Below, one piece after another: positions 47,585 to 47,802 of a stretch of DNA of 59,454 bases. Made by a program: the position numbers and the translations under genes. Under the pieces are notes generated by a model. It saw only the letters and a list, made by a program, of their open reading frames with translations, was not told where the DNA came from and made no database searches. The DNA comes from Thermoplasmata archaeon (GTDB lineage: Archaea > Thermoplasmatota > Thermoplasmata > RBG-16-68-12), in NCBI GenBank assembly GCA_036395115.1, contig DASWDU010000050.1, forward strand, positions 1-59,454, read 5' to 3'. How positions within the stretch are numbered: the first letter of the stretch is position 1; every line of letters begins with the position of its first letter.

Positions 47585-47721
47585 TAGCGGGGGATGGATG
47601 TCCCGGGCCGGAGGTCCGTCCTCGCGGCCCTTTTGAACCATCGATCTCCGGGTGTCTCACCGGGGACCTGGGAGTCCCGGGGTATGAGCCCGACGGGATA
47701 TCCTGGCTACCCCACCCCGCT
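47585..47721 (-). tRNA. Initiator tRNA-Met(CAU) with two introns
   Basis: Mature exons fold into an archaeal initiator tRNA: A1 start, AGCGGGG/CCCCGCT acceptor, GGG/CCC pairs in the anticodon stem, loop CTCATA-A with CAT anticodon, T arm GATGG-TTCAAAT-CCATC, discriminator A. Exons are 47721-47683, 47653-47632 and 47598-47585 (75 bases). Intron 1 (47654-47682, 29 bases) is at 37/38 with a canonical bulge-helix-bulge: CTCA pairs TGAG, bulges TA^C and AC^A. Intron 2 (47599-47631, 33 bases) interrupts the T-loop at 59/60. It folds into GGGCCG/CGGCCC plus GAGG/CCTC and has a relaxed motif. CCA is not encoded. Confidence 0.92.
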
Positions 47722-47781: not shown

Positions 47782-47790
47782 GGATAAACC
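47782..47790 (-). promoter_or_regulatory. Probable TATA box of the initiator tRNA
   Basis: GGTTTATCC on the minus strand, 61 bases before the first tRNA base. It would give a pre-tRNA leader of about 35-40 bases for RNase P to remove. No better TATA lies closer to the tRNA. Confidence 0.45.
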
Positions 47791-47802
47791 TATCGCGCGA
47801 TC

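Follow-up and report, generated by a model that had tools for sequence, protein, structure and literature searches.

We observed that the initiator tRNA-Met (iMet) gene of a Thermoplasmatota archaeon is interrupted by two introns, one at position 37/38 and the other in the T-loop, at 59/60. The reading of this locus as the sole initiator tRNA gene of the genome, carrying two bulge-helix-bulge (BHB) introns, is supported by the present analysis. Judging from the sequence, it is very probably a single functional gene with a TATA-type promoter, from which both introns would be cut by an EndA endonuclease of the alpha'2 type and the exons joined by RtcB into a normal 75-nt initiator. The support for this comes from exons that give a complete tRNA, from the absence of an intact copy, from conservation and covariation, from a promoter-like motif, from the same introns elsewhere, and from the presence of genes for EndA and RtcB. 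We infer that the gene is essential. Introns at 59/60 are of a kind already known; it is the lineage that, on its sequences, is an exception to the rule given for Euryarchaeota in reviews.

The host apparently belongs to Ca. Angelarchaeales (GTDB RBG-16-68-12), as judged from sequence matches of congener contigs to RBG_16_67_27, RBG_19FT_COMBO_69_17 and soil MAGs named EA_n. The Lunaplasmatales have been placed within Ca. Angelarchaeales, which equals GTDB order RBG-16-68-12 and is known from Angelo soils and Rifle sediment (PMC9038741), and Euryarchaeota archaeon RBG_16_67_27 has been termed a Lunaplasmatales archaeon (PMC9287336).

Gene structure and splice motifs

The window (the whole stretch of DNA that was analysed, 59,454 nucleotides) contains the following features of the gene.

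47585..47721, minus strand: complete gene for initiator tRNA-Met, 137 nt, made up of three exons and two introns; sole copy found in the genome
47683..47721, minus strand: exon 1, 39 nt, through tRNA position 37; same sequence in 19 of 19 genomes of the genus
47654..47682, minus strand: intron 1 at 37/38, 29 nt; strict BHB CUCA/UGAG, bulges UA/C and AC/A
47632..47653, minus strand: exon 2, positions 38-59, 22 nt; 100% identity in 13 of 13 congeners searched
47599..47631, minus strand: intron 2 at 59/60 (T-loop), 33 nt; inner hairpin of 6+4 bp; UUCA/GGGA with an A57.G mismatch, bulges AA/A and CA/U
47585..47598, minus strand: exon 3, positions 60-73, 14 nt; CCA not encoded
47784..47795, minus strand: promoter-like element CGATAGGTTTAT, BRE plus TATA-box-like; putative promoter

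The exons when joined gave a sequence of 75 nt, AGCGGGGTGGGGTAGCCAGGATATCCCGTCGGGCTCATAACCCGGAGATCGATGGTTCAAATCCATCCCCCGCTA, which ARAGORN folded and called as a complete tRNA-Met(CAU), with A1:U72, the GGG/CCC pairs of the anticodon stem and A73. The sequence-only reading had proposed an archaeal initiator with just these features, and its exon and intron coordinates were reproduced exactly, base for base. Both introns lie within the tRNA gene, and without them the cloverleaf is intact; the predicted joined sequences across 37/38 and 59/60 are CATAACCC and TTCAAATCC. Upstream of the gene, GATAGGTTTA was invariant in the window and 19 relatives.

It had been anticipated that standard callers may miss this gene, and this was true of ARAGORN and of Rfam RF00005. 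ARAGORN did not call the gene on the genomic sequence even with anticodon introns allowed, and RF00005 did not recover it even when relaxed to an E of up to 10. At the gathering threshold the window had no match to any Rfam model, the group I intron included, and a group I intron was rejected on this basis. A permuted tRNA of the Thermofilum type was also rejected, as the exons are in the normal 5' to 3' order with no 3' piece upstream. Default ARAGORN and Rfam also missed the tRNA-Ser(GGA) gene of the window (34895-34790, minus strand), which has a 22-nt intron at 37/38 (34857-34836, CUGG/CCAG). In four congeners (G003, G007, G012 and G018), tRNA-Ser(GGA) has a T-loop intron instead and none at 37/38.

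In a strict BHB, as defined here, the central helix forms between the last four exon bases ahead of the 5' bulge and the last four intron bases ahead of the 3' bulge. Intron 1 has this form, with four pairs (CUCA/UGAG) and 3-nt bulges, in keeping with its earlier description as a textbook motif, and the four-pair central helix was retained in 20 of the 21 family genomes. Intron 2 has the relaxed form. The T-stem and the inner hairpin are kept, and the central helix (U-A, U.G, C-G and the A57.G mismatch) is weakened on one side, again as had been described for a T-loop intron at 59/60. The window sequence alone would formally permit a junction at 58/59 too, while congeners such as L066-L068 and L083 permit only 59/60. 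The fourth central pair, that of A57, was absent from the T-loop motif in 16 of the 21 family genomes and present in the other five; it was also present in families f3 and f6. A full four-pair T-loop helix was seen in L066, L086, L211, L212 and others.

Folding of the T-arm together with intron 2 gave a structure stabler than chance (z = -3.4). The 37/38 stretch folded alone was no better than its shuffles (z = -0.9), and the case for intron 1 is therefore made by the whole motif in 20 of 21 family genomes and by the fit of the exons, not by folding. In an alignment of 22 sequences, seven pairs of the T-loop hairpin had changed on both sides; shuffles gave 3.1 such pairs, and each slid version of the alignment gave 3. 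The slid control is the better guide, since kinship among the sequences inflates shuffle controls. In the minimum-free-energy fold, the central helix was open and the BHB was not displayed by the fold itself, which counts against the main reading.

The splicing endonuclease

We found one EndA gene in the window genome, a single reading frame with two PF01974 domains, which encodes 350 aa at locus L031, 724-1776. The domain order is N-C-N-C, with two stretches each of Pfam PF02778 and PF01974, which is the two-repeat arrangement of the alpha'2 type. The triad (Y290, H298 and K329) lies in the C-terminal repeat and was invariant in 27 sequences; the N-terminal repeat does not have the His. The AlphaFold model of the protein (mean pLDDT 90.7) had as its best PDB folds the fused Methanopyrus kandleri EndA (5x89) and the Archaeoglobus fulgidus alpha'2 EndA, with a TM-score of up to 0.84 by target length, and it was a poorer match to the ARMAN-2 epsilon2 enzyme (TM-score 0.54). 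At the site of CSL or ASL insertion, between FFG and LSLLE, we observed no insert. There are six residues here, the same as in A. fulgidus, and in the model they form a tight turn that links strands 211-213 and 216-219. Neither a second EndA gene nor a separate beta subunit was found in the window genome, and the gene content thus does not correspond to an (alpha-beta)2 or an epsilon2 enzyme. One EndA each was also found in the other intron-rich genomes searched, except G102, where none was found. The enzyme can be assigned to the alpha'2 type and, going by its type, would be a homodimer. The gene for the exon ligase RtcB was also present (E 2e-172).

The sequence-only reading had held that a relaxed motif needs a broad-specificity endonuclease. 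On typing, the enzyme was not of a known broad-specificity form but alpha'2-like, without a CSL or ASL loop. A conserved Lys of EndA (FFGK/FYGK) was considered as a stand-in for these loops and rejected; it occurs also in families whose sampled iMet genes are without a non-canonical intron, and explains nothing alone.

The literature is divided on the abilities of alpha2 enzymes. They have been described as cleaving the canonical BHB only (PMC4033280), and broad specificity has been tied to CSL or ASL (PMC6379350, PMC12397907), whereas cleavage of BHL-like motifs has been credited to homodimeric enzymes (PMC8707768). That 16 of the 21 family motifs lack the fourth pair is thus a point against the main reading, if alpha2 enzymes are limited to canonical BHBs (PMC4033280, PMC6379350). 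It might be that both introns are spliced out, with the T-loop motif depending on a special activity, e.g. an unrecognised extra EndA subunit or a helper that broadens specificity. The enzyme found here has neither of the inserts of the (alpha-beta)2 or epsilon2 enzymes that relaxed motifs are said to need (PMC6379350, PMC12397907), and this would favour such an activity. However, a single EndA gene was found both here and in each other intron-rich genome searched (G102 apart), homodimeric forms are said to cut BHL-like motifs (PMC8707768), and the alpha'2 enzyme of A. fulgidus excises a BHL intron at 37/38 of a full-length pre-tRNA (PMC6379350). We consider a special activity of this kind to be improbable.

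Recurrence of the introns and copy number of the gene

A covariance model built from the T-arm with its intron was searched in the window genome and in genomes of the class. In the window genome it found four places, namely iMet, tRNA-Ile2(CAU), tRNA-Lys(UUU) and tRNA-Leu(UAA). The T-loop introns of tRNA-Ile2(CAU) (L266, G000:C34:84969-85016) and tRNA-Leu(UAA) (L268, G000:C28:56684-56729) are at 59/60 and have the A57.G mismatch, as in iMet; although the latter was matched weakly (E 0.11), a complete tRNA surrounds the match. The tRNA-Lys(UUU) gene (L267, G000:C25:87278-87326) has three introns, in the D-arm, at 37/38 and at 59/60, and its T-loop helix is perfect. A similar arrangement was seen in congeners (loci L299 and L303). 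The Lys-UUU and Leu-UAA isoacceptors are otherwise absent from the tRNA catalogue of the genome. Class-wide, 35 of 61 genomes had at least one T-loop match at an E of up to 0.5, and most families outside the order had none.

The window genome has other unusual tRNA genes. Introns were seen in the D-arm of tRNA-Pro(GGG) (L262, G000:C27:1602-1712), which ARAGORN misreads as tRNA-Lys(CUU), and in the D-arm and at 37/38 of tRNA-Gln(CUG) (L330, G000:C1 near 41340); D-arm junctions were placed by eye. The tRNA-Trp gene (L320, G000:C4 near 2811) has a long 37/38 intron, apparently with box C/D-like motifs. A 3' fragment of tRNA-Pro (L323, G000:C22:72091) is separated by about 4.5 kb from the full gene for tRNA-Pro(CGG) (L259, G000:C22:76573) and may be the trace of an integrated element. 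Near the normal genes we also saw tRNA-like copies of Ser and Arg that are truncated or weak (L263, G000:C11:30301 and L029, G000:C16:74021).

In the other families of the order, the iMet introns varied. Family f3 has the T-loop intron only, while f6 has introns in the D-arm and the T-loop, the latter with all four pairs of the central helix (UUCA/UGAA or UUCA/UGGA); f2 has a D-arm intron, f4 has one at 37/38 and f5 has none. In family f17, another family of the class, the iMet genes of G109 (L100) and G067 (L220) have far longer T-loop inserts, of 131 nt in the case of G109, which share the usual splice-site ends and terminate in GUUGAAAAU. In one genome of family f15 (G045; L295, L309-L313), T-loop introns interrupt at least six tRNAs (Ser-GCU, Leu-UAG, Ser-CGA, His, Gly-GCC and Arg-UCU), and iMet has a D-arm intron.

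We also scanned 84,980 genomes for iMet genes with a T-loop insert, by a single search with a pattern that fixed both the intron length and some of the sequence. The scan gave 52 loci, which fall in the genus and family of the window, in f3 and f6, in Nitrososphaeria, Micrarchaeota and one Bathyarchaeota MAG, and in some unplaced archaea. The T-loop inserts that were parsed nearly all match UUCA/UGAA or a near variant. The weaker cases were L149 and L161, which failed a strict T-stem filter, and L157, which is without the inner hairpin. The non-canonical introns of Thaumarchaeota are already modelled in tRNAscan-SE 2.0 (PMC8450103), so databases probably contain some of the thaumarchaeal cases.

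These occurrences bear on the possibility that the T-loop insert is retained, giving a mature initiator with an enlarged, branched T-arm. The insert forms a stable hairpin upon the T-stem and its central helix is weak, as would suit a retained structure. In tRNA, however, the T-loop docks with the D-loop, and an insert between 59 and 60 should prevent this docking. In other families and phyla, moreover, the same insert comes with the complete BHB helix UUCA/UGAA; it also occurs in three other tRNAs of the genome, and it is located exactly at a known splice position (PMC4090602). Retention of the insert is very unlikely.

Such an arrangement had been thought unusual in a euryarchaeal initiator. 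This agrees with reviews, in which euryarchaeal tRNA genes have single introns at the canonical site (PMC4090602, PMC4033280) and multiple introns among Euryarchaeota are listed for Methanopyrus and Methanothermobacter only (PMC4033280), and a literature search, mostly outside subscription journals, found no description of such introns in Thermoplasmatota. It is not a one-off, however, being fixed in the genus and recurring in other families and phyla.

As for the number of initiator genes, a pattern of the 5' half matched once in the window genome, as it did in 18 congeners. In the window genome, BLAST with the mature 75-mer gave only three exon pieces, all at the iMet locus; in 13 congeners it gave only exon pieces, at the corresponding locus. 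An intact copy was recovered from none of these genomes. The same BLAST did recover an intact iMet in a genome of another family of the order (G029), over 75 of 75 positions. The catalogued tRNA genes include one for the elongator Met (L256), itself interrupted at 37/38, and one for Ile2 (L264), which was read by eye; there was no further initiator among the tRNA genes assigned in the window genome. A second, intact initiator gene had been named beforehand as what could overturn the claim, and none was found in this draft.

Could the locus nevertheless be a decayed or decoy copy, with the initiator supplied by another intact gene? The genome is a draft of 50 contigs, 98.45% complete, which leaves room for a small gap. 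Besides the BLAST results, the pattern of conservation argues against a decoy. Both introns are present in all 19 genomes of the genus, where the exons are identical or nearly so and the introns diverge with their pairing preserved, and the promoter-like motif is conserved. Both introns are also present in two of the three other family genomes (G019 and G021 of the sister genus); the third sister-genus member had no iMet match. We therefore regard a decoy as extremely improbable. An assembly or binning artefact can be practically dismissed, for although the sequence is metagenome-derived, 21 assemblies from soils and aquifer sediment have the same structure with differing intron sequences. Thus, a pseudogene and an assembly artefact were both rejected, on the absent intact copy, the conservation and the concordant assemblies.

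Proposed maturation and relation to known systems

In the maturation that we propose, the iMet gene would be transcribed from its TATA-type promoter as one precursor. The EndA homodimer would cut both BHB motifs: at 37/38, where the motif is strict, and at 59/60 in the T-loop, where it has three pairs and A.G. RtcB would then ligate the exons to give the normal 75-nt initiator, and CCA would be added after exon joining. Removal of the T-loop intron probably precedes end trimming and T-loop modification, since the T-loop must be free of the intron to dock with the D-loop.

Looking beyond this gene, we lean slightly towards the view that T-loop and D-arm introns have spread through essential tRNAs, to as many as three in one gene, across an entire euryarchaeal order that has kept an alpha'2 EndA with no loop, and that the T-loop motifs of one family drifted to three pairs plus A.G. 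If true, this would contradict the published rule by which a broad diversity of introns requires CSL- or ASL-bearing enzymes, and alpha'2 enzymes would have some unrecognised means of accepting relaxed motifs. A single gene and a single enzyme would suffice for an in vitro test of the co-evolution that has been proposed between enzyme loops and intron diversity. Because default callers miss interrupted genes, the genomes of this lineage can also appear short of essential tRNAs. This is an uncultured lineage of soil and sediment in which the only initiator tRNA is interrupted twice and another tRNA three times.

There is a close likeness in position and motif to the non-canonical introns of Crenarchaeota and Nanoarchaeota (PMC4090602), which share the 59/60 position and the BHB logic and often occur with a 37/38 intron in one gene. 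Here, in contrast, the host is of the Thermoplasmatota, the enzyme is alpha'2-like and not (alpha-beta)2, and the fourth pair has been lost in most family members. The iMet genes of Nitrososphaeria, Micrarchaeota and the Bathyarchaeota MAG have the intron in the same tRNA and at the same 59/60 position, mostly with UUCA/UGAA, although the phyla differ; several of the Nitrososphaeria genes also carry D-arm and 37/38 introns. The permuted iMet of Thermofilum pendens (PMC3218864) is the same tRNA, with BHBs at 59/60 (the joint) and at 37/38 (the intron), but its 3' piece lies upstream, whereas the exon order here is normal. Among the Asgard archaea, Atabeyarchaeia and Freyarchaeia (PMC11291895), also known from environmental genomes, have several introns per gene at non-canonical positions. 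These affect 92-95% of their tRNA genes, as against a minority of genes here. Finally, the enzyme resembles the alpha'2 EndA of A. fulgidus (PDB 1R0V, 1RLV, 2GJW) in its two-repeat chain, C-terminal triad, fold and lack of a CSL or ASL insert, and differs from it in that, if it is the splicing enzyme, it would serve non-canonical and partly relaxed motifs.
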